A stretch of DNA of 32,803 bases from Rhodospirillales bacterium (GTDB lineage Bacteria > Pseudomonadota > Alphaproteobacteria > Rhodospirillales > Casp-alpha2): NCBI GenBank assembly GCA_017857825.1, contig JAFMCK010000005.1, forward strand, positions 1-32,803, in the 5' to 3' direction. The translations under genes were made by a program, and so were the position numbers. Numbering within the stretch: the stretch's first letter is position 1; every line of letters starts with the position of its first letter. Positions 7,245 through 22,485 of this stretch are shown piece after piece. A model generated the notes under the pieces. It did no database searches. It worked only from the letters and a program-made list of their open reading frames with translations, and had not been told where the DNA came from.

Positions 7245-8135
7245 TCAAGAAGCCTCGATAATTTTTTGCCAAGCTTTTGCATGTTCCGCTCCCATGAGCG
7301 TCCCTTTAACATCGCAACGTTGACAGGGGGCCTTTGTGCGATCGCCACAATTTAACAACTTTCGCGCTTCCATGAAATTATCGCCACACCAAACATCCAT
7401 GAATGATTGATTGTTCATGTTGCCGACGACTTTAGACTTATTCCAATCGTGAGAGCACAATAAAACGTCACCATTGTAGTCCATAAAAAATGTATAGCTT
7501 GGATAGTAGCACGGCGTTTTTAGCGGCTCGACTACGTCACTAATGGCGAATTCTGCTTTCGACATGGCACCGCCACGATTGCTGAGTGTGATGCCGAAGT
7601 CTTGTTCAGGCGGAAGGTAGCGATGTCGAATGACGAATTGACCATCATTCAGTCCGGCATCAATGCACATTTTCTCAAACCGCTCGGCGTCTTCAGCACT
7701 GTCGTACACACTTATCAGTATCGTCGTCAGCCCACTGTCGATAAGACGTAATAAACGGTTTTTGTTGAGCACGTCGCCGTTCGTGACCATTTCAATGCGC
7801 GCATTAGGGACATGTGTCGCAACTGTTTTGATGTGATCGTATATTTTTTTGTCTAACAGCGGCTCGACAAAACCTGAAAATAAAACAATGCCATCATAGG
7901 CAACCTCGCCCAACTCTCGCATAAGTTTTTCCAAGAGTTTTGGTGAAAGAAATTCTTTGATATCCGGATAATCTGGATCACTTCTGGGGCAAAAAGAGCA
8001 AACCCGATTGCACGTTCCAGACTCGCTAATTTCAACGACGCCAGGTAGAGGCGTCTGCAAATCAGGCTGACGCTCTAGCGCTTTGGAAATATGCGAGGAT
8101 TTCCGCGGGATCGCAGGATCAAAGAAATAATCCAT
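7245..8135 (-). CDS. radical SAM / SPASM domain protein
   Basis: The radical SAM CxxxCxxC cluster motif is C42-N-R-V-C46-S-F-C49. A C-terminal SPASM-type domain has further cysteines at about 209, 227, 250, 263, 271 and 274, enough for auxiliary iron-sulphur centres. I chose the ATG at 8135 (296 residues) because AGGTG lies 8 nt upstream. The frame is open a further 67 codons to 8336, but that stretch has an unlikely composition and no site at its start. Radical SAM/SPASM proteins modify peptides or act as sugar dehydrogenases/epimerases (for example in butirosin synthesis). In this locus a radical-mediated sugar modification is plausible. No precursor peptide is visible nearby. It has 12 nt to the downstream SDR gene. 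Confidence 0.9.
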   Translation of the reverse strand: MDYFFDPAIPRKSSHISKALERQPDLQTPLPGVVEISESGTCNRVCSFCPRSDPDYPDIKEFLSPKLLEKLMRELGEVAYDGIVLFSGFVEPLLDKKIYDHIKTVATHVPNARIEMVTNGDVLNKNRLLRLIDSGLTTILISVYDSAEDAERFEKMCIDAGLNDGQFVIRHRYLPPEQDFGITLSNRGGAMSKAEFAISDVVEPLKTPCYYPSYTFFMDYNGDVLLCSHDWNKSKVVGNMNNQSFMDVWCGDNFMEARKLLNCGDRTKAPCQRCDVKGTLMGAEHAKAWQKIIEAS

Positions 8136-8374
8136 AGTTCTAACACCTAAAAAGTTCAATTTCTGAAGAAGATAGTCTGTCGTTTGTCCGAACATGTAAA
8201 TTGTTGGTACACATCGGGATGTTTGCATTCTGCCTCGGTTGATCTTGATGGCGTATGCACCAGATAACCGCGACACGCGCCCGCCACACTTTGATTGTCG
8301 CGGCGCAATTTGGTCAATTAATGTGCTTTCAACCAATGCACTGTCAACACATTCACGCCAGCGATGCGCGGGCT
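8136..8374 (-). other. 239-base intergenic region inside the operon
   Basis: This is the untranslated stretch between the stop of the 575-residue protein gene and the supported start of the radical SAM gene. It contains a perfect TTGACA on the minus strand at 8342-8347, but no convincing -10 hexamer at the right distance (the best is CATTAA after 18 nt). It could hold a weak internal promoter. It is also open in the radical SAM frame, so an N-terminal extension cannot be fully excluded. Confidence 0.4.
8342..8347 (-). promoter_or_regulatory. possible -35 box of an internal promoter
   Basis: TTGACA matches the sigma-70 -35 consensus exactly and lies about 200 nt upstream of the radical SAM start. 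The -10 partner is poor (CATTAA, 18-nt spacer). It may be chance. Confidence 0.2.
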
Positions 8375-10102
8375 TTACTTTAACGACGAATCCGTCAAAC
8401 CGATATCTTTCCGAAAAACACCAATAAAAGGTGTTTTTGAAAAATGAACCAAGCCTGAAAGTCGCGCAAAGAAGTCACTTTCATCGCCTGCTTCAATGGC
8501 CCGAATGCGCGCCGCTGCTTGGTGCGCATCACGAACGCAAATCTCTGGATAATCGCGAAGAATACTAGAAACTTGTTCGCGCATTAAATCTGCAAAAAAT
8601 GTATATTGCCCGAATTGCAGGCCTTCTATCACGACCGACGATGGATCCGAAAAGCCGTATTTTTTTGTGCAAAGCAGCTCGAACAACGGCGCATTCGTTT
8701 GTTTGACATTCGTTAAACCTTCGATGCAGTCTTTGAAAAATGATTTCCCGAGCGGGGTCTCTGAAAACGATTTTTTAAGCTGCAAGAAAATTGTCCGTTC
8801 TGGAAACTCTGTGGCGAGTTGTCTTACAAACGAAACCATTGTTGGCAAGCCGACAAAAGCAGACGTGTAAATGACAATATCGTCTGAACGCGGGCTGCCC
8901 ATCAAAGCAAAATCAGGCTCCTTCGCATTGAAGGATCCAACGGGCGAGACGATCATATTTTCGTCCCAAGTCTTTTTGGTCGTCTCATTATACAAAGCGC
9001 TGCTGTGTACATAAAATGTATCAAAGCTAATGTAATGCCACATGGGTGAATGTGTCGTGTAGGTCGGAAAGCCATGGATAACACCGTATGCCTTTCCGCC
9101 GATCCTATTTAACTGCTCTCGTCGCAGTATGTGCTCGACGTTATATTCGTCTCTACACCAAAAATGTTTGATTTTGAACCGATGAAATAACGCGTGAAAC
9201 ATCGCGCGTTTATATATGATGGAGCTGACTAAATAGTAGTGCGCAGGACGAAGCGTCCGGTATGCGGCATAGTAATTCAGCGTATCTTGAAAGGCCTGCT
9301 GAATGGCCAAGATTGCGGCCTTAACGTCAAAGCGGCCATCGGTCACCTCACATTTATCATATGCGGCTAACTCGAATTTATCCGTCGGTTGCGTTCTATT
9401 TCTTTTCACAAGAAGAACGTCACCGCCGACGCTAGCGGCGTCGTATAATTTAAAGTCCGAAGGGTTTAAATAAAAATCGGCACCTAAAAAATAATTCTTT
9501 GGCTGCAGCGAGCCAAGGCGCGTTCGTGATAAAATCCATGCGACGGAATACGACACAATAGCAAAACCAAGGCTAAAATTAATAAATGACCTGAGCCATT
9601 TTTTTGGGCGGCTTAAATTTATTTTCTCTGTTTTATCCGCCGTAAATGCATCGAAAAGACCGGCAGTATCGGAATCAATACCAGAATAGGAAACCGTGCC
9701 TTTCGGGACGGCTTTATTGATCGAATCAATCTTTAGTACCCGTATATGGGCTGGCTTCATGTAATTACAGGTTACTTGTTTGTAGGCGAATACATCAATT
9801 TTGTTCGGTAAGTTTATATTTGAATATCCGAACTGATTATTGTGCCACGCCTCGGTTTTTCCGAAGACGTCGTAAAATAATGTGCGAAGGGGATAGTCCC
9901 AGACTAGCTGCATCTCAGGCGCCAAAACGCGCGCATCTTTGACGCTATCAAAGCGGGTCAAAAAGTCGTGTGCACGGCTCAATATCGGGTTGAATATCGG
10001 TAGGTGCGCCGACACCTCGAGCACATAGGTGTCGTACCCTAATGCAGACCTAACGAGCACATTAAAGATCGTGATTTCGTTGAGGACATAAACTTTAATC
10101 AC
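8375..10102 (-). CDS. uncharacterised GT-B-like surface-glycan protein, 575 aa
   Basis: I do not recognise a named family. The C-terminal two thirds reads like the CDP-glycerol-transferase / capsule-type GT-B superfamily: a YGVIHGFPTYT turn followed by a segment on a partner's position (DTFYVHSSALYNE), then VSPVGSFN, then a second Rossmann-like half beginning IVIYTSAF and ending with a SSVVIEGLQFG motif where such proteins bind the donor phosphate. The N-terminal 200 residues match nothing I know and end in a single hydrophobic stretch (about 172-191) that could anchor or pack against the membrane. The start is GTG at 10102, with GGGGA 8 nt upstream. The gene is visibly A+T-rich compared with the flanks. 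A glycosyl- or alditol-phosphate transferase is an inference. Confidence 0.6.
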   Translation of the reverse strand: MIKVYVLNEITIFNVLVRSALGYDTYVLEVSAHLPIFNPILSRAHDFLTRFDSVKDARVLAPEMQLVWDYPLRTLFYDVFGKTEAWHNNQFGYSNINLPNKIDVFAYKQVTCNYMKPAHIRVLKIDSINKAVPKGTVSYSGIDSDTAGLFDAFTADKTEKINLSRPKKWLRSFINFSLGFAIVSYSVAWILSRTRLGSLQPKNYFLGADFYLNPSDFKLYDAASVGGDVLLVKRNRTQPTDKFELAAYDKCEVTDGRFDVKAAILAIQQAFQDTLNYYAAYRTLRPAHYYLVSSIIYKRAMFHALFHRFKIKHFWCRDEYNVEHILRREQLNRIGGKAYGVIHGFPTYTTHSPMWHYISFDTFYVHSSALYNETTKKTWDENMIVSPVGSFNAKEPDFALMGSPRSDDIVIYTSAFVGLPTMVSFVRQLATEFPERTIFLQLKKSFSETPLGKSFFKDCIEGLTNVKQTNAPLFELLCTKKYGFSDPSSVVIEGLQFGQYTFFADLMREQVSSILRDYPEICVRDAHQAAARIRAIEAGDESDFFARLSGLVHFSKTPFIGVFRKDIGLTDSSLK

Positions 10103-10151: not shown

Positions 10152-10823
10152 TCATCTTGTTTCGTTATATAAGTTCGCGATGTCACATAACCCGTTCAAT
10201 ATCAGAACATTTTTCTTATCGAAGAACGCTTTCCAACCGTCAAATTCACTCATTTCGGTAAGGAATATAAAATCCATACCGAAGTGTTGGGCGGCCTCGT
10301 AATCGTATTTTGCATCGCCGACGAAAACCGGATTATTTGCCAGTATGCCTTTGTCTTTTAAGGCGTCGATGATCTCTACCTTATTTCTTGGGCTTCCGTT
10401 GATGCTTTGAAAAAGGTGGCTTAAACCCTTTTTCGAAAACACGTTATTCAATTCTATTTCATCGCCACCAGAGACGACGGCACATGTATGGCGCTTGTTC
10501 AATAAGGACAAGAATTCACGCAGGCACGGCGCTTCTTCACACGCCGGCAATGCATTGAAGACATACTCACCGTACTGAGCCAGCAGCGTTTCAGTTAACG
10601 CCTCGGGGTTTGGTGCGTTAAGAATTGTTTCGCTGAAATGCGCTAATTTTTTGTAACGTGAAATCCCCCCGTTGGAGACATGATACTCAACAAGCGACGT
10701 CATCGCTTCTGGTCCGTATGCGCGGCCGACTTCACGAAAGGCATTCGTCTTTATCTGATTGCTGTTCAATAGAACGCCGTCGCAATCGAACAGCCAGACG
10801 TCGTAGTCGCTGAGTGAGCGCAA
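10152..10823 (-). CDS. HAD-superfamily phosphatase
   Basis: A 223-residue HAD subfamily I hydrolase: motif I DCDGV with the nucleophile D13 and general acid D15, motif II serine in VVSGGDE, the lysine before the last motif in the NKVEI segment, and motif IV GDAKYDYEAA. The cap domain sits between motifs I and II (about 25-95). It should dephosphorylate a small phosphorylated substrate. It lies 25 nt after the KdsB-like gene, which in turn is coupled to the aldolase gene. By analogy with KdsA-KdsC-KdsB I infer that it removes the phosphate from the aldol product before CMP activation. The start appears to be TTG at 10823, with AAAGA about 9 nt upstream. Confidence 0.9.
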   Translation of the reverse strand: MRSLSDYDVWLFDCDGVLLNSNQIKTNAFREVGRAYGPEAMTSLVEYHVSNGGISRYKKLAHFSETILNAPNPEALTETLLAQYGEYVFNALPACEEAPCLREFLSLLNKRHTCAVVSGGDEIELNNVFSKKGLSHLFQSINGSPRNKVEIIDALKDKGILANNPVFVGDAKYDYEAAQHFGMDFIFLTEMSEFDGWKAFFDKKNVLILNGLCDIANLYNETR

Positions 10824-10848
10824 AACTATATTTCTTTCATCAACATTT

Positions 10849-11568
10849 TTATTGAATAATCTGCCGGATCTTTTCTAAATCTTCCGGCGTATCGACGGCG
10901 TAAGATTGGCCTGAAAGTTCAATCATATGAACTTCAAAGCCGAGCTCCAAAAACCGAAGAATTTCTATGTCTTCAATATTTTCCAGGTGTGTTTTTTTGC
11001 TTTGATCGGCAAATGCCTGCAAAGCGGCACGTGGGAATGCGTAAATACAAATCTGCCGTTTTGCAGTCTGAAAAGACAGCGCCTTCGTTGTTGGGATTGC
11101 GGCGCGGCTCATATACAAGAGTCGGCCATCCGGCCGCGCGACCACCTTGGGAATGGATGGGTTTCGAAAACTTTCTTCGTCCTCAATCACGGCCATGCCG
11201 TTGATCACGCTTTCGGGATTCTTCTTTGCGGCTCGAATGATATTTGAAATATCTTCCGGATCGATAATTGGCTCATCACCTTGAACGTTGATATATATAT
11301 CGGCATCAATTTTTTCTGCAACACATGCCAACCGATCCGTTCCTGTTAAACAATCGGCGGGGGTCATAACGACTTTCGCTGAAAATTCTTCGCAATGCCG
11401 TTGAATTCTTTCGTCGTCTGTTGCGATGTACACGTCTTCGGGTGACGTGCTCATGATGCACCGCTCATAGGTGCGCTGGATCATGCTTTTGCCGCAAATA
11501 TCAATGAGCGGCTTTCCAGGAAGTCGACTGGATTGATAGCGGGCCGGAATAACCACGATGGTTTTCAT
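10849..11568 (-). CDS. KdsB-like CMP-3-deoxy-ulosonate cytidylyltransferase
   Basis: A 239-residue member of the KdsB family, which transfers CMP from CTP to a 3-deoxy-2-ulosonic acid. It has the nucleotide-binding start IPARYQSSRLPGKPL, the VYIATDD and GTDR segments, the metal-binding NVQGDEP motif near residue 94, the HLENIEDIEILRFLE stretch and the C-terminal AVDTPEDLEKIR. Classical Kdo enzymes have His-Ser-Gly before TDR; here the stretch reads ADCLTGTDR. It may therefore prefer a sugar other than Kdo. Its ATG overlaps the stop of the aldolase gene (ATGA, 11565-11568), a tight coupling. The HAD phosphatase gene follows. It is the second CMP-sugar synthetase of the operon besides the LegF-like one. 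Confidence 0.88.
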   Translation of the reverse strand: MKTIVVIPARYQSSRLPGKPLIDICGKSMIQRTYERCIMSTSPEDVYIATDDERIQRHCEEFSAKVVMTPADCLTGTDRLACVAEKIDADIYINVQGDEPIIDPEDISNIIRAAKKNPESVINGMAVIEDEESFRNPSIPKVVARPDGRLLYMSRAAIPTTKALSFQTAKRQICIYAFPRAALQAFADQSKKTHLENIEDIEILRFLELGFEVHMIELSGQSYAVDTPEDLEKIRQIIQ

Positions 11569-13211
11569 GAGGATTTGTGCGTTCCAATTACAAGCGGATT
11601 GAATAGCGTTTGCTGCGTGACGGAAAACGTCGTCGGCGTTAATGCGATGAGCGGCACGTCGTGAGATGAAGCGTTGTAGGCCTCAATAATATGGTTCATT
11701 TCGCTGCGTGCTCGATGGCTCAAATCGTCGTCGCCGTCAAAACCAACTAAGAAGATACGCTTCGCGCCGGCAGCGACGGCAATGCAAATGGCATAGGCAG
11801 CCCCCAAAGAGCTCGGGATTGTGCAATCGAAACTACGGGCTTCGAATTTACGGGAATCAATCTTCACACCAAAATCGAATATATTCATACCTTCAAGGAT
11901 GCCCCCATGAAGATTATAGGTCTGATGTAGCGGCAGAATGATCGGTTGTTTTATCTCTAGATAATGCGCCGATTCAATCAATATCCTTGCTGGGTTGCAG
12001 GCAACAAAGGCGTCTATTAGGTCATTTGGAAGCGGCGTTGACGTGTTTATAGACAGCACGGATATTTCATTATTCGAAATGAAATTTTTGATGTCGTCTG
12101 AATATTCTCGAACACTTTGACCTGCACCGATGATAAGGAAATCATCCGCCGTAAATAATTCTGAAGGTGACCTTTCTTGCAAGGTCGACGTTGATTCCGT
12201 GCCCATTACGGCACTTGATAAATTCTGTAGGCTAAACGTGTGGCTGTTCTCACCCTTTAGCCGTTTCAAAACGCTCATCACGACATTTGGATCGTATTCC
12301 ATATCCGAGTGCATGGTTTGCACATAGGTCGGATGAATATTTTCTTTGGCAGAAAAATAATAAAGTGGGTTAGGGCCCCAGCGATATTTATCTTTTAAAT
12401 CTTCAATGTCCGTCATGCATATCGAGATCAGACTTTCTGAATTGAAAGTATTGTTGAAGCGGCTTTCCAATTCGCCGATTAAGACTTCGGTCTTGGCATT
12501 TCCCGCACCGCGGCCCATGCCCTGAAGCGTTGCATCCAACCACGTAACCCCTTCAGCGGCGGCAGCCAAAGAATTTTCAAGCGCGCGTTCCATATTATTG
12601 TGGGTATGAATACCAAGTTCACCCGACCATTCTTTGCGTAATGTATGAATGCATCGAACCACATCTTCTTTGCCCATGTTGCCTAACGAGTCTGCAAAAT
12701 ACAGAACTTCAATCGCCTCGCAGCGCGCCATCTTTAACGCAACTTCCGTCAACTCATCATCGCTGGCCCGCGATACCTGCATCAGGTTTACGATGACCGT
12801 ATAACCTTTGGCTTTTAATAAATCGGTGATCTCGGGGATATGGCTTACTTCGTGGAGGTGCGCAGCAACGCGAACAATCTCGACCGGCGAGTTTATACGC
12901 TCGTCAAATAGCATGTCGAGCGCAGCGGCAATGCCGTTTTCATGCTTTATCAAATCGCTCGCATTGACCATCACGGCGATTTTCGAATGCGTTGGTAAAT
13001 CTAGGCTTTTGAGAAAAAGGTCCGTGGTAAAAAAATATGGCCCATAAAATCCCTCTTTTGCAAAAGTGCGCAAGCCAAGCTCAAGAACATCAACGCGTGA
13101 CTCATCTAACGCGCGAAGATATTTCTCGACCAACGGTCGCGAGAAATTCCAAGCATTATAGTAGCCACCGTCTCTGAGTGTGCAGTCGAGAAGTTTGATA
13201 TTCTTGGTCAT
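11565..13211 (-). CDS. DRE-TIM metallolyase (HMGL-like aldolase) fused to a DUF115/MptE-like domain
   Basis: A 548-residue two-domain protein. Residues 1-290 form an HMG-CoA-lyase-like TIM barrel: the start LLDCTLRDGGY carries the catalytic R13/D14, and IHTHNN gives metal ligands H202 and H204. In this superfamily 4-hydroxy-2-oxovalerate aldolase joins or splits pyruvate and an aldehyde. Residues about 355-548 form a Rossmann-like domain starting FLIIGAGQS and containing KRIFLVGFDGDDD, similar to DUF115/MptE-like proteins of flagellin-glycosylation loci. I infer a pyruvate aldolase making a 2-keto-3-deoxy sugar acid, because the coupled KdsB-like and HAD genes supply the other two steps of such a route. 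The ATG at 13211 has AAAGG 9 nt upstream. The role of the C-terminal domain is unknown. Confidence 0.82.
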   Translation of the reverse strand: MTKNIKLLDCTLRDGGYYNAWNFSRPLVEKYLRALDESRVDVLELGLRTFAKEGFYGPYFFTTDLFLKSLDLPTHSKIAVMVNASDLIKHENGIAAALDMLFDERINSPVEIVRVAAHLHEVSHIPEITDLLKAKGYTVIVNLMQVSRASDDELTEVALKMARCEAIEVLYFADSLGNMGKEDVVRCIHTLRKEWSGELGIHTHNNMERALENSLAAAAEGVTWLDATLQGMGRGAGNAKTEVLIGELESRFNNTFNSESLISICMTDIEDLKDKYRWGPNPLYYFSAKENIHPTYVQTMHSDMEYDPNVVMSVLKRLKGENSHTFSLQNLSSAVMGTESTSTLQERSPSELFTADDFLIIGAGQSVREYSDDIKNFISNNEISVLSINTSTPLPNDLIDAFVACNPARILIESAHYLEIKQPIILPLHQTYNLHGGILEGMNIFDFGVKIDSRKFEARSFDCTIPSSLGAAYAICIAVAAGAKRIFLVGFDGDDDLSHRARSEMNHIIEAYNASSHDVPLIALTPTTFSVTQQTLFNPLVIGTHKSS

Positions 13212-13462: not shown

Positions 13463-14143
13463 TTATTGTGATTCTGCTAAAATCGCATGGCACAGCCGCA
13501 ACTGAAATTCCGTATCGATATCAATTGACCGCTCTTCGGGCATCACGATGGCACGGGTTTCATCGTCCATGAAAACGCGATGTGCTAAAAACCATTCGGT
13601 CCGAAACGCAAAGATAGCCCCGTTCAACATCACCGTTGCGCTCGAAGCCGACGCAGTTTGATCCGTCGCCATGGGCGTCATCCTGCCGTCGTGCGTTACC
13701 TTATAGCACCACCATGGCTGATGGCTCACTGGGCCGACGGCAACACAGCTGTCGATCTTGGTATCGGCCAACAACGCCAGCGCGGTTGAAATATCGTCTG
13801 AGCAACGAAGCGGCGAGGTCGGTTGTAGCAACACACCAACGTCATAGGTTTCGCCGATGCTTGAAAAGTGCTGCAACGCGTGGGCGACAACATCAGCTGA
13901 GGTGGCGTCATCACTCGCCAAGTCGGGCGGTCGCATAAACGGGATCTCGGCGCCAAAACTTTTTGCGACGTCGGCGATCTCGCGATAATCGGTTGAGACA
14001 ATCACCCGGTCAATAATAGCGCATCCAAGTGCGGCTTCAATCGTCCACGCAATCAGCGGGCGCCCGCCGACGTCGCGGGTATTTTTACCCGGCACGCGCT
14101 TTGATCCACCACGGGCAGGAATAATAGCGAGGACGCGCATCAT
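13463..14143 (-). CDS. legF: CMP-nonulosonate cytidylyltransferase (LegF/NeuA type)
   Basis: A 226-residue acylneuraminate cytidylyltransferase. The CTP-binding motif IPARGGSKRVPGKN is at residues 8-21, followed by VIVSTD, the VLLQPTSPLR motif (about 104-113) and the C-terminal SIDIDTEFQL with the metal-binding aspartates. It transfers CMP from CTP to a nine-carbon 2-keto acid. Neighbouring LegC, PtmE, LegI and LegG homologues point to legionaminic acid rather than sialic or pseudaminic acid. It starts with a double ATG (14143/14140), 31 nt after the LegC stop, without an obvious ribosome-binding site. The symbol rests on context as well as family. Confidence 0.88.
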   Translation of the reverse strand: MMRVLAIIPARGGSKRVPGKNTRDVGGRPLIAWTIEAALGCAIIDRVIVSTDYREIADVAKSFGAEIPFMRPPDLASDDATSADVVAHALQHFSSIGETYDVGVLLQPTSPLRCSDDISTALALLADTKIDSCVAVGPVSHQPWWCYKVTHDGRMTPMATDQTASASSATVMLNGAIFAFRTEWFLAHRVFMDDETRAIVMPEERSIDIDTEFQLRLCHAILAESQ

Positions 14144-14174: not shown

Positions 14175-15347
14175 CTATTGGCCTTGCAGTTTATCTACGA
14201 GCTGCGGGCTCGAAGGCAGGTTGATGGTGCGGCGGTATAAATCGCCTGCGTTTTTCATGCGCGCATGCGGCGCGGATTTATAAATTGGCAAATCATGCAA
14301 CGGATACCAAAGTGGCCGACAGCTCAACCCGGCATCATTCAGTGCCGCCAGGATATCGTCGCGATGTTCGGCAACATGCTCATCCAAGATAATTGCATTG
14401 AGCCAGTAGTTGCTTTGCCTGTCAGTGCGCTCGATTAAAAACCGGACGTTATCTATGTTGCCAAAGGCGGCGTCATAAAGCGCGGCCAACCGTCTTTTGC
14501 GTTCTAATTTCGAGGATAGTTGCTCCAATTGTCCGCATCCCAACGCCGCATTTAGGTTAGGCATTCTAAAGTTATAGCCGATGGCGTCGTGCTTATATTC
14601 CCATTTGTGCGGCGCTTTTGCCGTTGTGCTTAAATGGCGCATACGTTTTGCCAACTCTTGGTTCGCTGTCAAAACCGCGCCGCCCCCTCCCGTGGTGACG
14701 ATCTTATTGCCGTTAAAGCTTAAAATACCGACATCGGCGAACGTGCCCGCATGCCGCCCATGATAGGTTGAGCCAACGGCGCCCGCTGCGTCTTCAATCA
14801 TCGGGATATCCAACCTCTTGGCCAGTGCGGCAATTTCTTCGATGTCACCAATATGGCCAAAAACGTGGGTCACGACGATGGCGGCGATTCGGCGACCGGT
14901 TGTGGCATTGACCCAGGACGTATCTGTTTTTTTGCAAGTTTGTTCTATGTGGGCCTGCAACATTTTAGCATCAATACCGAATGACTGTGGTTCGCAATCA
15001 ACGAAATGAGGAATCGCACCCAAATGAGACGCCGCCGCGGCCGTTGCCACGAACGTCGTTGACGGCACAATAACTTCATCCCCGGCGCCTACACCAACGG
15101 CGCGATATGCCAACTGTAGGGCCGCCGTGCCGGATGCCGTTGCGATCGCAAATGGGTTGCCGGTCAAGGTGCATAAATCGTCTTCGATTCGATCAACGTA
15201 AGAACCGACCGATGACACCCAACCTGAGCGCACGCAGTCACTGGTGTAGTCTTCTTCGCGCCCGGTGAATTCGGGCTCGTGCAGTGCTGCTGCCGCGGGC
15301 ACAACCGAGCGTGCGGCAAAACAGATCTGGTCGATCAAGTCTTTCAT
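14175..15347 (-). CDS. legC: PLP-dependent aminotransferase, LegC family
   Basis: A 390-residue DegT/DnrJ/EryC1 aminotransferase. The N-terminal PEFTGREEDY...SGWVSSVGSYV segment is characteristic of the LegC branch. The PLP lysine is K215 in SFNGNKIVTTGGGG and the cofactor-ring aspartate is D186 in IEDAAGA. LegC transfers an amino group to the C4 keto position of the 4-keto-6-deoxy nucleotide sugar, forming the amine later acylated on the way to legionaminic acid. An AGGA lies about 9 nt before the ATG. It sits between ptmE-like (11-nt gap) and legF-like, as an intact part of the pathway block. Its expected partner LegB is not in this window. Confidence 0.9.
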   Translation of the reverse strand: MKDLIDQICFAARSVVPAAAALHEPEFTGREEDYTSDCVRSGWVSSVGSYVDRIEDDLCTLTGNPFAIATASGTAALQLAYRAVGVGAGDEVIVPSTTFVATAAAASHLGAIPHFVDCEPQSFGIDAKMLQAHIEQTCKKTDTSWVNATTGRRIAAIVVTHVFGHIGDIEEIAALAKRLDIPMIEDAAGAVGSTYHGRHAGTFADVGILSFNGNKIVTTGGGGAVLTANQELAKRMRHLSTTAKAPHKWEYKHDAIGYNFRMPNLNAALGCGQLEQLSSKLERKRRLAALYDAAFGNIDNVRFLIERTDRQSNYWLNAIILDEHVAEHRDDILAALNDAGLSCRPLWYPLHDLPIYKSAPHARMKNAGDLYRRTINLPSSPQLVDKLQGQ

Positions 15348-15358
15348 CGGTGCAATTC

Positions 15359-16411
15359 CTATTGGCTCCGCTCAGTAAAATAGGACTGTGCTTCCTTGAA
15401 ATCTTCTTTCTGGCCAATATCAAGCCAGTACTCGCGTATTGGAAATGCAAGGCAGCGAATGCCATCATGCGACAGCATGTTGAAAAAATCAGTCATATAC
15501 AGGGGCGTATTTTCGGGCACCCGAGCAAAAAGATCACTGTTCAATACATAGATGCCCGCATTCACAAAGTACTCCTGAATAGGCTTTTCTTTGATTGCGA
15601 TGATTTCACTGTTTTCACACTGAACAACGCCATATGGAATTTGAAAGTCATAGCGCCGGATACACATGGTCGCCTGGGATTTCTGTTCCAAGTGATAAAG
15701 AAGCAAATTCGAAAAAGCGATGTCGGTCAGCACGTCGGCATTCATGACAATCACTGGCCGGTCCCCTCTCGGGGTGAAAAAACCCAGCGCACCTGCGGTG
15801 CCGAGCGCATTGTCTTCTTCGATATAATTAATGTTGGCACCAAAGCGCGCACCGTCGCCCAATGTGGCATACATCATTTCCTTTTTGTAATTCACCGCAA
15901 TCGTGATGTCGGTCAGTCCCTGCGAAACAAAATTTTCAATGATAATTTCAATCATTGGTTTTTCACCGATTGCAAGTAACGGCTTTGGCGTCGATTCTGT
16001 TAACGGCCACAGTCGCGAGCCCAATCCACCGGCCATCAAAATGACCTCTGCTGGAACCCTTCGTAGGTCTACATCGGCATGACTGACGTCCAAAACGTCG
16101 ATCACGCGACTGTCGTGATCAAGGATCGGAATATATTCCAGTTTTCGCTCACGGGCCTGGCGTATCAAACCTTTCTGCGCGGATCCGACGGTGCCCGTCA
16201 TCGGATTTTTGAACATTACGGTGCCGACGGGCTCGTCGAAACTTCGTCCATTAAGAATGGCGCGGCGAATATCGCCATCGGTGACGGTCCCGAGCAATCT
16301 GTCGTCTGCGTCGACGACGATACATATCTTTGCAACGTTTTTGTCGAGAACTTTGATGACGTCTGCGACTGTCGCTTCATCGCCTACAAAACAATTTTTA
16401 AATTGATCCAT
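15359..16411 (-). CDS. ptmE: nucleotidyltransferase with N-terminal CBS pair (PtmE type)
   Basis: 350 residues in two parts. The first, about 1-115, is a CBS-domain pair (VTDGDIRRAIL at 43-53 is the typical hallmark). The second, about 121-350, is a sugar-phosphate nucleotidyltransferase with MAGGLGSRLWPLT at 126-138, the lysine of PKPLL at about 143 and the metal-binding aspartate in VMNADVL (D226). In Campylobacter the matching protein PtmE makes GDP-glucosamine from glucosamine-1-phosphate and GTP, the first committed step to CMP-legionaminic acid. The CBS pair may bind a nucleotide for feedback control. The ATG directly abuts the stop of the methyltransferase gene (TAA-ATG), so they are coupled. 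Confidence 0.88.
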   Translation of the reverse strand: MDQFKNCFVGDEATVADVIKVLDKNVAKICIVVDADDRLLGTVTDGDIRRAILNGRSFDEPVGTVMFKNPMTGTVGSAQKGLIRQARERKLEYIPILDHDSRVIDVLDVSHADVDLRRVPAEVILMAGGLGSRLWPLTESTPKPLLAIGEKPMIEIIIENFVSQGLTDITIAVNYKKEMMYATLGDGARFGANINYIEEDNALGTAGALGFFTPRGDRPVIVMNADVLTDIAFSNLLLYHLEQKSQATMCIRRYDFQIPYGVVQCENSEIIAIKEKPIQEYFVNAGIYVLNSDLFARVPENTPLYMTDFFNMLSHDGIRCLAFPIREYWLDIGQKEDFKEAQSYFTERSQ

Positions 16412-17101
16412 TTACGATAGGCCATGTTCATTTTTTTGCGCTTGAATGACCCAATGCTTTAATTCCTTGGTGCCTTCCTCAAAGCTCCTGACCTGGTATT
16501 CTTTTGATCGCATTGAAAATCCGGCAAAAATTTCCGCGCAGTCTGCGTCGTTCGCGAAGTGATTTAAAACGGAATCATTATTTGGCCCGACAGAAATGCC
16601 CTTGAAAGTCCCAGGTGCTATTTCCTCACCAAAACCTTCGCCCCATGATCCTGTTGCCATCATGACCGAGAAAAACTGCCCACCGTCTTTGAGAAGTTCA
16701 CGGCAGTCCGCAACGATCCCGACCGTCGTTCTTAAAGGCATACATTGTAAGCAATTAACATCAATGACGGCGTCAAATGTATCACCGCCTACCAGCGCCC
16801 GAACGTCAAGTATATCGCCGACAAGAAGCTTCGTGTGATCCGATAGCCCTTCGTTATCGAGGCGGTCACGCGCTTGGCGTATGGCTGTTGCGGAGCCATC
16901 GATGCCCGTCACCGAAAATCCTTCACGCGCCATATACCAAATATTCGCGCCAGGCCCGCACCCCAGTTCTAAAATTCGGATGCTCTCGCGTGACTGAACC
17001 TTATAATAATTTCTCGCAACAAACCTGACTAAGCTCTCCGCTGGATAACGACCCCACTCATTTTCGGAAAATATCTCTTCCCAACGATGGCTCCATGACA
17101 T
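16412..17101 (-). CDS. class I SAM-dependent methyltransferase (PtmH-like)
   Basis: A 229-residue methyltransferase. SAM motif I is ILELGCGPGAN at about 43-53, the acidic ribose-binding residue is in VTGIDGS (about 64-70), and DVNCLQCMP follows. The opening WEEIFSENEWGRYPAE is typical of methyltransferases that stand beside ptmE in flagellin/legionaminate clusters (PtmH of Campylobacter), and here it also abuts the ptmE-like gene with no gap. It probably methylates a hydroxyl or an N-acyl group of the nonulosonic acid. A GGAG lies 11 nt before the ATG at 17101. Confidence 0.87.
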   Translation of the reverse strand: MSWSHRWEEIFSENEWGRYPAESLVRFVARNYYKVQSRESIRILELGCGPGANIWYMAREGFSVTGIDGSATAIRQARDRLDNEGLSDHTKLLVGDILDVRALVGGDTFDAVIDVNCLQCMPLRTTVGIVADCRELLKDGGQFFSVMMATGSWGEGFGEEIAPGTFKGISVGPNNDSVLNHFANDADCAEIFAGFSMRSKEYQVRSFEEGTKELKHWVIQAQKNEHGLS

Positions 17102-17157
17102 AGCAACATTTTCTCCGAATTTAAGGATACGTGATCAGCGGGTTAAATCAGTTTGGT

Positions 17158-18351
17158 TTATTTGAAATAGGCAACTGCACGTCGGTTCCTTAACCAGCCA
17201 GCCTGTTCATACAATTCGTACTGTTCCAAAACATCCTCAACCGCCGTTGGCGCAAGGCCAGCGGCTCGCCAGAGATGTCTTAGTTTGTCGATTAGCGGTC
17301 GAGAATGGATATAGAAATGATGAAGTCGCCTATTCTTGTCTATTAACGGTCGAATAAATTTACGAAAAATACTACGTGTTCTCGCAGCAGGTACAGCCGA
17401 TCCGGCACTTTTAGTAATATCTTGAATATCAAATATGGGGAGCTGTGGCTGATCAAGCTTATCTGCAGCTTTGGAAAACTCTATGATGAATTTTATATAA
17501 TGAGGCACATCTGCGGGCAAGTTGGTCTGCGGTGTCTTCTTTAATCTCGCAAAGCAATCCATCGCAATTTCTGTCTGGTTCATAATAATCGCATAGAACG
17601 CTAATTTTTGGAGGCGCGCGAATATGGCTGGCTTGTCTTGCCCGCTATTTTTTGTTGCTTCGGGCTTTTTAAGAAATAGCGCGTTCGTGACGATATCAAG
17701 ATTAGTTGAGCGGAGGCCTGTTGGTACTGATTGGGCACCAAACTTCATAAAGCCATCGAAACAGCAGAAGAAGAAGCCCAAACTTTCTAAGTAAGATTTT
17801 ACCTCAGAAAATGTTTTTTGTCCTTCATACAGTGGGTGCATTTCAGTTTCGGCAATGACGCATAGCGTTTCTTCGCGGAGACATTTTTCTGCGCCTTTCA
17901 ATACCTCCCAAGTGGCACCTTGAGCATCTATGGTGAGACAATGAGGCGGTCGCGCGAGTGCATCGCTAAAGCATATTTGATCTAAGGAACGAAATTCAGT
18001 CACTATTTCATGGTCGACTGACATAACGTTATCAAGTTTCGCAAGATATTTATATCTAGATATATAGTAAAAATTTTTGAATTCTTGCGATAATTGAAAA
18101 ATAGAACTCAGGTAAGGTTCGACCATAATATTAAATTTATCAGTATTGTTTTTATTGCTGATGCAAAAAGGGTAAACCGTTGCATATTTTCCAGCTTGAT
18201 CCAACGAACTGCGCGCTTCATTAATGCAGTCCGTATCAGGGTCATAATAGACGTAATCTATGTCATCATTAAATAACCTGGGTAGATGGATCGAGCCAGA
18301 GCCTTCTCTGGCACCAATATGATGATGGGAAAGGCGGTTACTGCTCATCAT
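17158..18351 (-). CDS. FkbM family methyltransferase
   Basis: An FkbM-type SAM-dependent methyltransferase. HIGAREGSGS near the N-terminus is the SAM-binding loop, YVYYDPD the acidic strand-2 end, and CLTIDAQGATWEVLKGAE the usual FkbM centre (normally KIDVEGxE). The C-terminal 130 residues (about 265-397) are extra, rich in basic residues, with no domain I know. The ATG at 18351 (397 residues) is fixed by a strong AGGAGG 6 nt upstream, and it overlaps the NeuB stop by one base. A longer frame to 18432 has no such signal. The gene is noticeably A+T-rich relative to its neighbours, which suggests separate acquisition. It would O-methylate a sugar; the acceptor is unknown. Confidence 0.85.
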   Translation of the reverse strand: MMSSNRLSHHHIGAREGSGSIHLPRLFNDDIDYVYYDPDTDCINEARSSLDQAGKYATVYPFCISNKNNTDKFNIMVEPYLSSIFQLSQEFKNFYYISRYKYLAKLDNVMSVDHEIVTEFRSLDQICFSDALARPPHCLTIDAQGATWEVLKGAEKCLREETLCVIAETEMHPLYEGQKTFSEVKSYLESLGFFFCCFDGFMKFGAQSVPTGLRSTNLDIVTNALFLKKPEATKNSGQDKPAIFARLQKLAFYAIIMNQTEIAMDCFARLKKTPQTNLPADVPHYIKFIIEFSKAADKLDQPQLPIFDIQDITKSAGSAVPAARTRSIFRKFIRPLIDKNRRLHHFYIHSRPLIDKLRHLWRAAGLAPTAVEDVLEQYELYEQAGWLRNRRAVAYFK

Positions 18352-19412
18352 TATGTGCCTCCTGTTTTGAGACTGATATCTATATGCGGATTTGGAAGAT
18401 CTAGTTTTTCGCCGGCAGAGAAATGTCGCCACGCAACCGATCCGACGACCCGATCAATGTCACGTGCCGGGATGCCGTCATTTGGCCGCAGCGCAACAAC
18501 ATCGTCATCGGCTATCGTCTCACCAAGCGCAATGTCACGCGCCGCAACCAAAGACCGACGCACAGACTTCACCACGTCTTTCTCTATCGGCAGCAGTCGC
18601 TTTTCCGCGGACCCCAGCATCGTCTCTGCGGTCCGGATGGAAGCGACGAGTCGAAACAGGGTTTCCGGGTCGGCAGACGCCATATGATCCGGTCCGGGGA
18701 GTGATCGATCGAGCGTATAATGCTTTTCAATGATTTTTGCGCCAAGCCCCACGGCGACCACTGCGGCAATCGTGCCGTTTGAATGATCTGACAAACCAAT
18801 GGGCAGCGAAAACTCTTCATGCAACGTTGTCATCGCCTTAATGTTCATATCTCTGTCAGGTGTTGGATACGCTGTTGTGCAATGTAGTAGTGTAATATCC
18901 AACGGATCATCGCTTATTTTCGCGCGGGCTTTGCGGAGTGTTTCTATCCCTAAGTTAACATCACTCAGATTACACATGCCTGTTGAAAGAATAATCGGAA
19001 GTCCATACGAACCGGCTAAGCGTACAAGCGGCACGTTATCAACGTCACCGGATGGAATTTTAATTCGTTGGATGTTTAGTTCTTCCACCAGGAACTTCAG
19101 GCTGGGAAGATCGAAGCCGGTTGAAAGAAATTCAATGCTGCGCGCGACGCAATGCCGTGCGAGGTCGACAAAAACCGATTGTTCTAACTCAAAGGTTTTT
19201 CCGAGTTCGTACATATCGTTGACACCCGACGTGCCAGCTTTTTGGTATTCAACCAAAGCGTTGTCTCGGCGCGTGACCAATTCGCGGTCCCACGTTTGGA
19301 ACTTCACCGCATCGGCCCCTGCATCCGCCGCAATATCGATCAAACGATGGGCCATGTCAGGGCTGCCGTTATGATTTACACCAGCTTCAGCGATGATATA
19401 GACACCACTCAT
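18351..19412 (-). CDS. legI: nonulosonic acid synthase (LegI/NeuB family)
   Basis: NeuB-family enzymes condense phosphoenolpyruvate with a six-carbon amino sugar to a nine-carbon ulosonic acid. The TIM barrel starts with IIAEAGVNHNG and continues through KFQTW, KIPSGD, ILSTGM, LLHCTTAYP and IGLSDHSNG, ending with IIEKHYTLD. An SAF (antifreeze-like) domain follows from about residue 288 and caps the active site of the partner subunit. Total length is 353 residues from the ATG at 19412, as usual for the family. This start has AAAGG 8 nt upstream and lies one base after the previous stop. The frame is open to 19439 without a better start. The LegI assignment is from the Leg-type neighbours. Confidence 0.92.
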   Translation of the reverse strand: MSGVYIIAEAGVNHNGSPDMAHRLIDIAADAGADAVKFQTWDRELVTRRDNALVEYQKAGTSGVNDMYELGKTFELEQSVFVDLARHCVARSIEFLSTGFDLPSLKFLVEELNIQRIKIPSGDVDNVPLVRLAGSYGLPIILSTGMCNLSDVNLGIETLRKARAKISDDPLDITLLHCTTAYPTPDRDMNIKAMTTLHEEFSLPIGLSDHSNGTIAAVVAVGLGAKIIEKHYTLDRSLPGPDHMASADPETLFRLVASIRTAETMLGSAEKRLLPIEKDVVKSVRRSLVAARDIALGETIADDDVVALRPNDGIPARDIDRVVGSVAWRHFSAGEKLDLPNPHIDISLKTGGT

Positions 19413-19413
19413 T

Positions 19414-20820
19414 TTACATACCTTTTGTCCTTGGCGCACATTGTTCTGCCTGCTTTGACAATGTCAAGATCTCGGCGTTAATGGCTGCCGTTGCGCTTTG
19501 CGACCCAGCCTTCATGGGGTCGTGGATTTTTTCGATTGGCGGAAAGGCGTCGAGGATCGCGGCGGCTATCTTGGGGGCTATTTCGCTGCGCACGGGTACG
19601 CGAGGGAAAAAGTATCCCGTTGTCTGTCCGCGTTTCAAAAATACAATCGCACCCACGACGCCATCAATCAAAATGATTTGGCTAAGAATATTGGGTGACG
19701 TCCGGCATCGATCAAACACCATTTGGTTTCGCGACCAGTTGGGTGCGTGCCCTGTTTGAGATTTGCGCGCGGCAAATTTCTCGCAAAGTGTTTGATGAAT
19801 ATATGCATAGTCGCCGGATGTTACTTTACGCTGCCCGACCTCATTGGCTGCGTCAGGGGCATCACTTTTGATATTGTGCGCCGGTTCTGTGGCCGCTGTT
19901 CGATAGCTTAAGAAAATGCCATCACGTCCGCCACCGATCGACTTATACGCTGTTGGGTTATGGATAATGCCGCCGACAAAGTAATTCAGCCGTAACGGTG
20001 AATATCGCTTTTTGAAATCCAACAAATGATCGTCGGGCCGTGTGGATCGGCCGCCGCCAAGGTGCATCCATTTAAAGCCTGCGTTTGCGTAATCGCGGAT
20101 CGCGATATCATGCAAAAGATACGAGGCATAGGTCTCTCGCCCACGCTGGGTTGATGCTGATAAATGCGTATGCGCAAAAATGCCGCCCGCGATACACAGC
20201 ATAACGCCAACCGGTTCGCCGTTGTCTTCTGCGACCCAGCTTCTGGAATAATCTTGCGCTAGGATATTTTTAAAATACTGCGCATCGAAATAATATCTCG
20301 CCGCTGCGTTGTTATGCTCCATACCGTCTTCATAGACGCGCCTAAATATCTCACTGTCATCTGCGCCTAAGCGCCGAACCTGCAACGCGGCGCCGGCAAG
20401 CCGAATGCGCTTTTGCGTGATCCTGTCATATGGCGGTACATCTTCTTCACGCCGTGTCGTCAAATCGACAAGGATTGTTGTCCGATTGAAACTGAAAAAA
20501 TCGAGATGTGGTCGCAATGCAGCGATATCGATAAACGGGTGAAACCGGATGAATTCGGCAACAACACCATCGTCGTAACATTTCTTTCGCCACGCGCGCA
20601 TGCCAACGTCTAAATCATCCGCCGTGCGGCTTAACGGACCGCCATAGCCCCACGGTGTCTCCGCATCAAACAGCCCTGTCGACTCTATCTCGCGGACCGT
20701 GGCCGAATGACAAAACCCATCGATATTGATTTCAGAAATATGTCCGTGGAATTGATGTATATTCAGAAACTCACGTTCATAATAAATATCATTCAAAATA
20801 TCGTCGTAATGATTTTTCAT
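19414..20820 (-). CDS. FemAB-like acyl-transferase (GNAT fold) with extra C-terminal domain
   Basis: A 468-residue protein whose first 330 residues resemble the FemAB / BioF2-like GNAT branch. An N-terminal half contains PWGYGGPL and FIRFHPF. The GNAT core has SWVAEDNGEPVGVMLC, then THLSASTQRGRETYASYLL and WMHLGGGRS, then DFKKRYSP. Residues about 340-468 form an additional domain I do not recognise. In legionaminate synthesis the C4 amine must be acylated, normally by the hexapeptide-repeat enzyme LegH. No LegH homologue is present, so this protein could be the acyl donor enzyme. FemAB relatives also use aminoacyl-tRNA, so an amino-acyl substituent is possible. It lies between legG-like and legI-like genes with gaps of 16 and 1 nt. 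Confidence 0.75.
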   Translation of the reverse strand: MKNHYDDILNDIYYEREFLNIHQFHGHISEINIDGFCHSATVREIESTGLFDAETPWGYGGPLSRTADDLDVGMRAWRKKCYDDGVVAEFIRFHPFIDIAALRPHLDFFSFNRTTILVDLTTRREEDVPPYDRITQKRIRLAGAALQVRRLGADDSEIFRRVYEDGMEHNNAAARYYFDAQYFKNILAQDYSRSWVAEDNGEPVGVMLCIAGGIFAHTHLSASTQRGRETYASYLLHDIAIRDYANAGFKWMHLGGGRSTRPDDHLLDFKKRYSPLRLNYFVGGIIHNPTAYKSIGGGRDGIFLSYRTAATEPAHNIKSDAPDAANEVGQRKVTSGDYAYIHQTLCEKFAARKSQTGHAPNWSRNQMVFDRCRTSPNILSQIILIDGVVGAIVFLKRGQTTGYFFPRVPVRSEIAPKIAAAILDAFPPIEKIHDPMKAGSQSATAAINAEILTLSKQAEQCAPRTKGM

Positions 20821-20836
20821 TAATTAAAACCGCACC

Positions 20837-21985
20837 TTAAGGATATTCAGTTTCTAAGAATGCTTTTATGTGTTCGACGATGACGCGGGACGGCAACGTG
20901 GCTTCAGAATATCTTGAGAGTGAATCGGTCTCAGCATTCCGCTTCAATGAGAGTGCTTTGTGAAGCGCGTTGGAAATGTCATCAATCCCCCCCGAACAAT
21001 CAATAATGGTCGGTGTCCGAATGCGGCCTTCCTGGCGTGATCCGATATTAACCGTTGGCGTGCCAAGGGCAGGTGCTTCTGTCATGCCGCTTGATGAATT
21101 CCCAACGACAACATCAGCCGCAGCGACCAGCGAAAGATAGCGTCGAAATCCAAGGCTTTGAACTTCCGCGGCCGTGGTCTTGTTCTGTGCAACAAAACGA
21201 CGAATTTTTGCGCTGACCTGTAAGCCGCCCGGATCTGCATTCACACCGGTAAATACGATATTTGAATCCGCAAATTGGCCAAGCACCGATAGCAACGCGT
21301 CGATACTGCTTTCTGTTTCCGCAGGATATGACGTCACCGGGTGGTAGGTTACGGCGAACAATCTTTGTTGCGGCGAAAGGCCCAATTCAGCGAGTATCTT
21401 AGTCGCATTTTCGGGAATGTGTACGCACGAGTTTTCGATTCCAAGGTGGCCGACATTGAACACGTGTGATCCGTCTAAGGCGCGCTTTTTAACATTTTCT
21501 TGGTATTCTTTGTCAGCGACGAAATGAATTCGCGACATATCGGTGACGAGGGCGCGAAAAATATTATCCAGCGCGCCAAGGGTCGTCTCACCGCCGCCGA
21601 TATGGGCAATAGGTATGCTCAAAAACGTGGCTGCAATTGCTGCTGGAACGATCTCGTAACGGTCCCCAAGTAAAATAAGCAGATGCGGCTTTTGTTGCGC
21701 AAAGGCGTCAAAGAATAATCCATGTGCTGTGCCCATTGCGTGAACGATGGCAGAGGCAGACTGGTCGCCAGAATCAAGCGGTATCGTCGCCGAGGGAGCA
21801 AACCCTTCTGTGACGATTTCCGAAAGCGTCGCCCCGTGTTCTTGCGATAGATGGGATCCCGTGACAATTAGCGACAACGCCACGTCCGGGTCATCATCAA
21901 GATGGCGCAGCAGGCGGCTCAGCAAGCCAAATTCGGCTCGGCTTCCGGTTACTGCAGCAACTCTAAAAGGTGTTAACGTTGTCAT
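20837..21985 (-). CDS. legG: hydrolysing nucleotide-sugar 2-epimerase (LegG/NeuC family)
   Basis: A 382-residue GT-B-fold hydrolysing 2-epimerase: VTGSRAEFGLL at the start, VTGSHLSQEHG, LLGDRYE, the HIGGGETTLGALD motif and the C-terminal VGNSSSGMTEAP and NIGSRQEGR donor-site segments. It releases a 2-epimerised free sugar from the activated sugar for the NeuB-type synthase. One conserved stretch is unusual: family members usually have Arg-His-Ala and Thr-Lys after the GGE motif, while here it reads FRALVTDMS. The start at 21985 is chosen because the upstream gene stops at 21991 and an AGGG precedes it; the frame is otherwise open to 22054. The FemAB-like gene follows at 16 nt. Confidence 0.9.
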   Translation of the reverse strand: MTTLTPFRVAAVTGSRAEFGLLSRLLRHLDDDPDVALSLIVTGSHLSQEHGATLSEIVTEGFAPSATIPLDSGDQSASAIVHAMGTAHGLFFDAFAQQKPHLLILLGDRYEIVPAAIAATFLSIPIAHIGGGETTLGALDNIFRALVTDMSRIHFVADKEYQENVKKRALDGSHVFNVGHLGIENSCVHIPENATKILAELGLSPQQRLFAVTYHPVTSYPAETESSIDALLSVLGQFADSNIVFTGVNADPGGLQVSAKIRRFVAQNKTTAAEVQSLGFRRYLSLVAAADVVVGNSSSGMTEAPALGTPTVNIGSRQEGRIRTPTIIDCSGGIDDISNALHKALSLKRNAETDSLSRYSEATLPSRVIVEHIKAFLETEYP

Positions 21986-21990
21986 CAGCT

Positions 21991-22485
21991 TTACCCTGCA
22001 TCCAAAACACGAAACAGGCATTCTGTTGCTGATCGATTTTTTGACAGAGCACAAAGTTGGTCGATGGAGTCGTCTGCGTTCAAAAGCGGGTTCTCGTCAG
22101 CCAATGTCTGCAGATCGGTTGCGGATAGGATGACAGGCATTTGCGAGAACAGCCAACAATCAATACTTGATGGTTCAGGCACGAACCCAACATAGGGGCA
22201 TCCAAGCGCGATGGTCTGAATAAGTGCACCGGAACTTACAGGCCCATTGGCAACGTCCGCCCATAACGCATGTGCTTGTAAACCGTCTGTTCGCGGAATG
22301 ACCGTCGCGTCTAATTTCATGCGCGAGAACAGTACCTGGAAAAATTCTGAATTATCAATTGCAGGATGTCCCTTAATGCGAACGACTTTACCTTGCTCAT
22401 TTAATACTCTGACGAGGTCGATAAGGTATTGAACGGTGTTGGCGCGAAGTGCGGCGGGGTCTGCAATTCCCGAATACACGGTCAT
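21991..22485 (-). CDS. C-terminal GT-B-like half of a surface-glycan protein, probably split from the 22530-23852 gene
   Basis: A 164-residue product. VVRIKGHPAID followed by ADVANGPVSSGALIQTIALGCP is the usual C-terminal, donor-binding half of capsule-type GT-B proteins. It lacks an N-terminal half of its own, and the gene directly upstream encodes just that half. The ATG at 22485 has no ribosome-binding site. The frame is closed by TAA-TGA a few codons upstream. I read this as the broken-off end of the preceding gene; two independently folded subunits remain possible. Confidence 0.6.
   Translation of the reverse strand: MTVYSGIADPAALRANTVQYLIDLVRVLNEQGKVVRIKGHPAIDNSEFFQVLFSRMKLDATVIPRTDGLQAHALWADVANGPVSSGALIQTIALGCPYVGFVPEPSSIDCWLFSQMPVILSATDLQTLADENPLLNADDSIDQLCALSKNRSATECLFRVLDAG

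Follow-up and report, generated by a model that had tools for sequence, protein, structure and literature searches.

A gene trio of a DRE-TIM aldolase, a KdsB-type cytidylyltransferase and a HAD phosphatase as a probable module for a CMP-activated ulosonic acid other than Kdo

A 32,803-nucleotide stretch of a Rhodospirillales bacterium genome (assembly GCA_017857825.1, contig JAFMCK010000005.1, positions 1 to 32,803; hereafter the window) carries three coupled genes, for a DRE-TIM aldolase with a C-terminal tail, a KdsB-type cytidylyltransferase and a HAD phosphatase, which probably form a module that makes a cytidine monophosphate (CMP)-activated 3-deoxy-2-ulosonic acid, other than 3-deoxy-D-manno-octulosonic acid (Kdo), for a surface glycan by way of an aldolase route. 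This reading builds on direct observations of the genes and their families, their fusions and conserved linkage, the catalytic residues retained and the Kdo-enzyme motifs lost. A preliminary description had pointed out the trio, and we could reproduce its gene positions, families and overlap: the aldolase stop and the KdsB-type start share an ATGA, the HAD gene starts ~25 nt past the KdsB-type stop, and the family matches are to HMGL-like (1e-25), CTP_transf_3 (4e-48) and HAD_2 (1.5e-16), respectively. Its statement that no pathway with this trio had been described also stood, in that the open-access literature (DRE-TIM, HOA aldolase, ulosonic acid, KdsB, phage) yielded no account of the module. 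The trio and its parts are as follows.

11565..13211, reverse strand: tailed DRE-TIM aldolase, 548 aa; residues 1-~330 are the pyruvate-aldolase TIM barrel
11565..12170, reverse strand: C-terminal tail of the aldolase, residues 348-548; MptE/DUF115-like fold
10849..11568, reverse strand: KdsB-type cytidylyltransferase of the aldolase-linked subclade, 239 aa; CLTGTDR, IPKV, RQICIYAF and EDIEILRF
10152..10823, reverse strand: HAD phosphatase, 223 aa, TTG start; DCDGVLLNSN and GDAKYD

Tailed aldolases occur at 19 loci (window included) in Alpha- and Gammaproteobacteria, and each of these has a HAD gene and a cytidylyltransferase gene of the CTP_transf_3 type, so that the trio passed the test of conservation in other genomes set for it beforehand. 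The relatives are in Idiomarina, Pseudoxanthomonas, Nitrincola, Pseudomonas and a gammaproteobacterial metagenome-assembled genome (L002-L008; L numbers are our handles for loci, G for genomes and C for contigs), on three Leisingera plasmids and in a genome from the family to which the window belongs; a further seven genomes of the phylum that carry one all come from a single order, taken to be gammaproteobacterial. At 18 of the 19 loci the trio is contiguous or has one or two genes intervening (L003); the remaining one (L100) runs into the end of its contig and has its transferase two genes upstream of its aldolase. Content is constant across two gene orders, in which either the transferase or the HAD gene comes second after the aldolase. 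The transferase is KdsB-type at 11 loci and NeuA-type at 8, an interchange that indicates that activation by cytidine triphosphate (CTP) is conserved while the enzyme lineage changes. The tailed aldolase is rare (2/399 genomes across the phylum, the window's included, and, by full-length scores, 7/395 in one order), and no fourth biosynthetic gene recurs at the bacterial trio loci beyond general sugar genes.

Aldolase and KdsB domains are also found fused. IMG/VR holds 33 viral loci (on contigs up to 271 kb, some of them near-copies) where the two are joined in one open reading frame (ORF) of ~555-590 aa, the KdsB domain being of the same subtype as that of the trio; no such fusion was found among INPHARED phage isolates. 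Sampled flanks contain a small HAD-like ORF, weakly assigned (Pfam E 0.05; phrog_1238 2.5e-13), at 24 of the 33 loci and an MptE-like ORF at 19. In one phage type, on large viral contigs (L128-L130:9016-11710), a GT29 sialyltransferase-like ORF (PF00777, 2.6e-13) is placed upstream of the fusion and forms with it and a small HAD a contiguous head-to-tail array. Among bacteria, a genome of the order mentioned above (L103) encodes an aldolase-KdsB protein of 768 aa, next to which is a HAD gene.

Compared with 13 ordinary KdsBs, drawn from the PDB and from the genomes concerned or their relatives and including the capsule enzyme KpsU, the trio-type KdsBs, phage domains among them, form a single clade (21 members, support 100/98). 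Ordinary KdsBs have, with few exceptions, the motifs HxSG[TS][DE]R, VKV..YFSR..[IT]PxxR, [RKH]HxGIYAYR and ExLEQLR, whereas the trio clade has [CA]xTGTDR, [IV]PKV, xPxxK, [KR]QxCxYxF and EDIExxR (with slight deviations in L103), and the motifs common to lipopolysaccharide and capsule CMP-Kdo synthetases are present in none of the 21, be they from trios or fusions. The ADCLTGTDR stretch of the window enzyme, earlier singled out as unlike classical Kdo enzymes, indeed lies where ordinary KdsBs and KpsU have HxSG[TS][DE]R, with one exception seen. The first differing motif is in the CTP half and the other three are in the C-terminal, Kdo-binding half (domain assignment: PMC3149649), and the residues for CTP and Mg (R10, K19, the QGDEP Asp and the VD Asp; roles from PMC3149649) are invariant in trio-type KdsBs. 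The window enzyme scores over both NCBIfam cut-offs (PRK13368, 314.5 versus 255 bits; TIGR00466, 164.7 versus 155.2), the second of which is missed by some other trio members. Its closest solved relative is KpsU (1gq9), a capsule CMP-Kdo synthetase with ~40% identity and the same CTP and Mg residues, which, though roughly equally distant from the window protein, retains the Kdo motifs that the trio clade has replaced.

In 395 genomes of one gammaproteobacterial order, every KdsB that scored at least 270 bits with a clade profile sits at an aldolase locus (5/5). Among 399 genomes from across the phylum, the enzyme of the window is alone in reaching that score, and in a plasmid collection the three Leisingera plasmids stand apart. 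The next scores (244 bits and below) belong to proteins with ordinary KdsB motifs in 4 of the 5 whose motifs were readable. A locus with aldolase-family, KdsB-like and KdsC-like genes (L104) was not counted as a trio because its KdsB falls outside the clade. Separately, a second variant KdsB group (e.g. THTRALDR-type), accompanied by genes for HAD proteins and 2-hydroxyacid dehydrogenases, was seen in the window's family (G000:C169, at L178:5482-8963; G036 contigs C3, C40, C116, C117, C128 and C133, L179-L184), with ~6 copies in one genome and one copy directly after an HpcH/HpaI aldolase (L179:1193-2859). This group is possibly another CMP-ulosonate module. With an HpcH/HpaI aldolase next to a variant KdsB in that one case, and such aldolases at two trio loci as well, the pairing of an aldolase with a KdsB may have evolved repeatedly.

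Ordinary KdsA and KdsB are encoded elsewhere in all 12 aldolase-bearing genomes tested, and the module is therefore not the core Kdo route but an addition to Kdo synthesis. The flanks sampled at the other bacterial trio loci contained no KdsA or NeuB homologue, NeuB being present only in the window's own nonulosonic acid set, and at one phage locus there is a match to KdsA that is weak and distant. The lack of a phosphoenolpyruvate (PEP)-dependent synthase in those bacterial flanks agrees with the non-PEP condensation suggested in the preliminary description. Together, the clade motifs, the ordinary KdsA and KdsB elsewhere and the lack of NeuB or KdsA near other bacterial trios point to a sugar that is probably other than Kdo. 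We hold it unlikely that the trio instead makes ordinary Kdo by a bypass, with the aldolase using pyruvate and D-arabinose 5-phosphate, the HAD protein acting as KdsC and the KdsB-type enzyme as a second CMP-Kdo synthetase like KpsU that feeds a Kdo-containing glycan. KpsU is, it is true, the closest solved relative, and the NCBIfam KdsB score is just above the cut-off; but KpsU and nearly all ordinary KdsBs keep HxSG[TS][DE]R, [KRH]HxGIYAYR and ExLEQLR, for which the clade shares another set, and the aldolase-bearing genomes already make Kdo. Moreover, the only locus seen with extra ordinary Kdo genes, a second KdsA and KdsB pair at G624:C7:127340-129801 in a genome that also has an aldolase-KdsB fusion, duplicates kdsA along with kdsB and looks like a capsule-type Kdo duplication.

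Assignment of the first enzyme to the metal-dependent pyruvate aldolases of the DRE-TIM superfamily, as had been proposed, is supported by profiles, solved relatives, fold and retained residues. It has an HMGL-like TIM barrel nearest to HOA aldolases, and its closest solved structures are 3dxi (BVU_2661), a 'putative aldolase' from Bacteroides (8e-41), and next DmpG-type 4-hydroxy-2-oxovalerate aldolases, a relationship with which its AlphaFold model agrees. The pyruvate-enolate Arg and the metal Asp/His/His (R13, D14, H202 and H204) are retained in all trio aldolases and phage fusions. Fold, pyruvate Arg and metal ligands are thus as in DmpG/BphI and 3dxi, from which the trio aldolases differ in their glycan-locus setting and fusion to an MptE-like tail or KdsB; unlike DmpG/BphI, moreover, they have Tyr for the catalytic His and no acetaldehyde dehydrogenase partner. 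Quite improbable, in our judgement, is a Claisen or other condensation in place of a pyruvate aldol, with the trio linked, its chemistry of another kind and the CMP acceptor another keto acid. DRE-TIM enzymes also include acetyl-CoA-dependent synthases (isopropylmalate synthase and homocitrate synthase), and the loss of the DmpG base His would suit such a change; profiles and fold, however, rank 4-hydroxy-2-oxovalerate aldolases and 3dxi above the synthases, and RDGEQ, generally known as the motif of DRE-TIM synthases, is not present in the trio aldolase.

Mere neighbourhood in a mobile polysaccharide locus, with the HAD and CTP-transferase serving other sugars, is already largely refuted and very hard to credit, for although the locus has many sugar genes, a second cytidylyltransferase among them, and a G+C below its surroundings (44-47% for the trio and its downstream genes versus a window mean of 51%), the content is conserved in 19 loci of two classes, plasmids included, in two gene orders and with fusions in phages and a bacterium.

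In the aldolase route that we favour, the metal-dependent aldolase would condense pyruvate with a phosphorylated aldose, most likely a C3-C5 aldose phosphate, to give a 2-keto-3-deoxy-aldonate phosphate. The HAD protein would then release the free acid; its nucleophile motif DCDGVxLxSN, with the DxD, and its GDxxxD motif are kept, so that it should be an active phosphatase, and the presence of a phosphatase in the module implies a phosphorylated aldol product. From the free acid and CTP the KdsB-type enzyme would form the CMP-ulosonate, to be used next by a CMP-sugar glycosyltransferase, which might be the DUF115/Maf-fold tail itself or another protein, for example the product of the phage GT29-like gene. 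The route would follow the logic of Kdo synthesis with a pyruvate aldolase replacing the PEP synthase. Condensation of a three-carbon unit, CMP activation by a CTP_transf_3 enzyme and use of the CMP-sugar by a transferase would be common to it and to the KdsA-KdsC-KdsB and NeuB-type pathways, as would dephosphorylation by a HAD enzyme in the case of Kdo; the differences are a condensing enzyme that is a DRE-TIM metallo-aldolase of the pyruvate class and not a PEP-dependent synthase and, relative to the Kdo pathway, a KdsB-type enzyme that lacks the Kdo-enzyme motifs. Aldol condensation of pyruvate is less favourable than condensation of PEP, and therefore fast dephosphorylation and CTP activation, or a fusion of the phage type, would help to pull it forward.

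Several points weigh against this reading. We infer the reaction, the acceptor, a non-Kdo product and the role of the tail from genomic data. The position of the DmpG catalytic His21, just after RDGS, is Tyr in every trio and phage-fusion enzyme (Tyr17 in the window), as it also is in 3dxi, so the proton-transfer step may differ and aldol chemistry is not assured, the more so in a superfamily with the acetyl-CoA-dependent members named above. Motif loss in the KdsB-type enzyme suggests another sugar but falls short of proof, and the substrate specificity of the HAD protein is not readable from its sequence. The genome sample behind the linkage counts is limited, the Nitrincola transferases classed as NeuA-type are under the Pfam cut-off, and two trio loci have an additional HpcH/HpaI-type aldolase inside or just after the trio (L003:11612-12361; L098:9394-10188).

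The tail had been described as DUF115-like, which holds at the level of fold but not by sequence, where it is below the Pfam threshold for MptE-like/DUF115 (PF01973; 13.6 bits versus a cut-off of 34.6, E 0.06-0.17). Modelled separately, since a structure search with the full-length aldolase model was swamped by TIM barrels, the tail (pLDDT 86.5) matches the MptE-type HPPK 8sd5 (Foldseek probability 1.00, E 1e-3, TM 0.46-0.51) and phage MptE-like proteins (BFVD). Profile-profile comparison gave a weak match to the phage MptE-like family and no meaningful match to the GT29-like protein. Under the same Pfam accession (pfam01973) falls the domain at the centre of Maf flagellin transferases, which resembles the sialyltransferase Cst-II; the Maf enzymes use CMP-nonulosonates or CMP-Kdo (PMC11339370). 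With a fold like theirs, the tail may plausibly use or channel a CMP-sugar.

The trio of the window is set in a polysaccharide locus and adjoins a legionaminic-acid-type set (LegC, PtmE-like, NeuB, NeuC and PseF/NeuA-like):

13463..14143, reverse strand: second cytidylyltransferase, PseF/NeuA-like, assigned to the adjacent nonulosonic acid set and not to the trio
14175..22054, reverse strand: legionaminic-acid-type set, with LegC aminotransferase, PtmE-like CBS-NTP transferase, NeuB, NeuC, methyltransferases and a GNAT-like gene

The window's NeuB is accounted for by this set and, because the set has its own cytidylyltransferase (13463-14143), the KdsB-type gene is dispensable for it. Directly downstream of the trio, positions 8375-10102 encode a 575-aa ORF, possibly a glycosyltransferase, which matches nothing in Pfam, NCBIfam or PHROG and is without relatives at the other trio loci. 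The polysaccharide locus also contains a Radical SAM/SPASM protein (7245-8336), and at 404-2017 the window encodes a TIGR04326-like surface carbohydrate biosynthesis protein (68.6 bits, below the cut-off). Elsewhere, distant aldolase-family genes (~540 aa) are accompanied by short-chain dehydrogenase/reductase (SDR) and split transketolase-like genes (L105:1253-7272, L110:2405-6756 and L111:217-6273), with a thiamine pyrophosphate-enzyme-like gene as well in L105 and L111, in what, with the genes read from their sequences, looks like a pathway to some other sugar. Plasmids of Paraburkholderia and Mesorhizobium carry aldolase relatives that lack the tail (L061:7261-12809; L062:8125-12224); these have SDR and HAD-IA genes, and in L061 an aminotransferase gene, but no annotated cytidylyltransferase nearby.

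To our knowledge, all known bacterial routes to CMP-ulosonic acids start with a PEP-dependent synthase. The logic of the module is probably a variant of these pathways in which the condensing chemistry is new and the sugar probably so. We are evenly divided on the wider claim that, alongside the KdsA and NeuB types, metal-dependent pyruvate aldol condensation provides a third start to CMP-ulosonic acid synthesis, leading to a sugar acid undescribed in these organisms, in two proteobacterial classes and, as a fused enzyme, in phages that use the sugar to decorate themselves or their hosts. Since the trio transferases of the Leisingera plasmids are annotated '3-deoxy-manno-octulosonate cytidylyltransferase', genome-based predictions of glycans may be in error. 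If true, the aldolase route would account for a family of sequences whose function is unknown (that of 3dxi) and add a new acidic sugar donor, the clade motifs would provide a code for reading KdsB specificity from sequence, and phages would carry the pathway as a fused enzyme.

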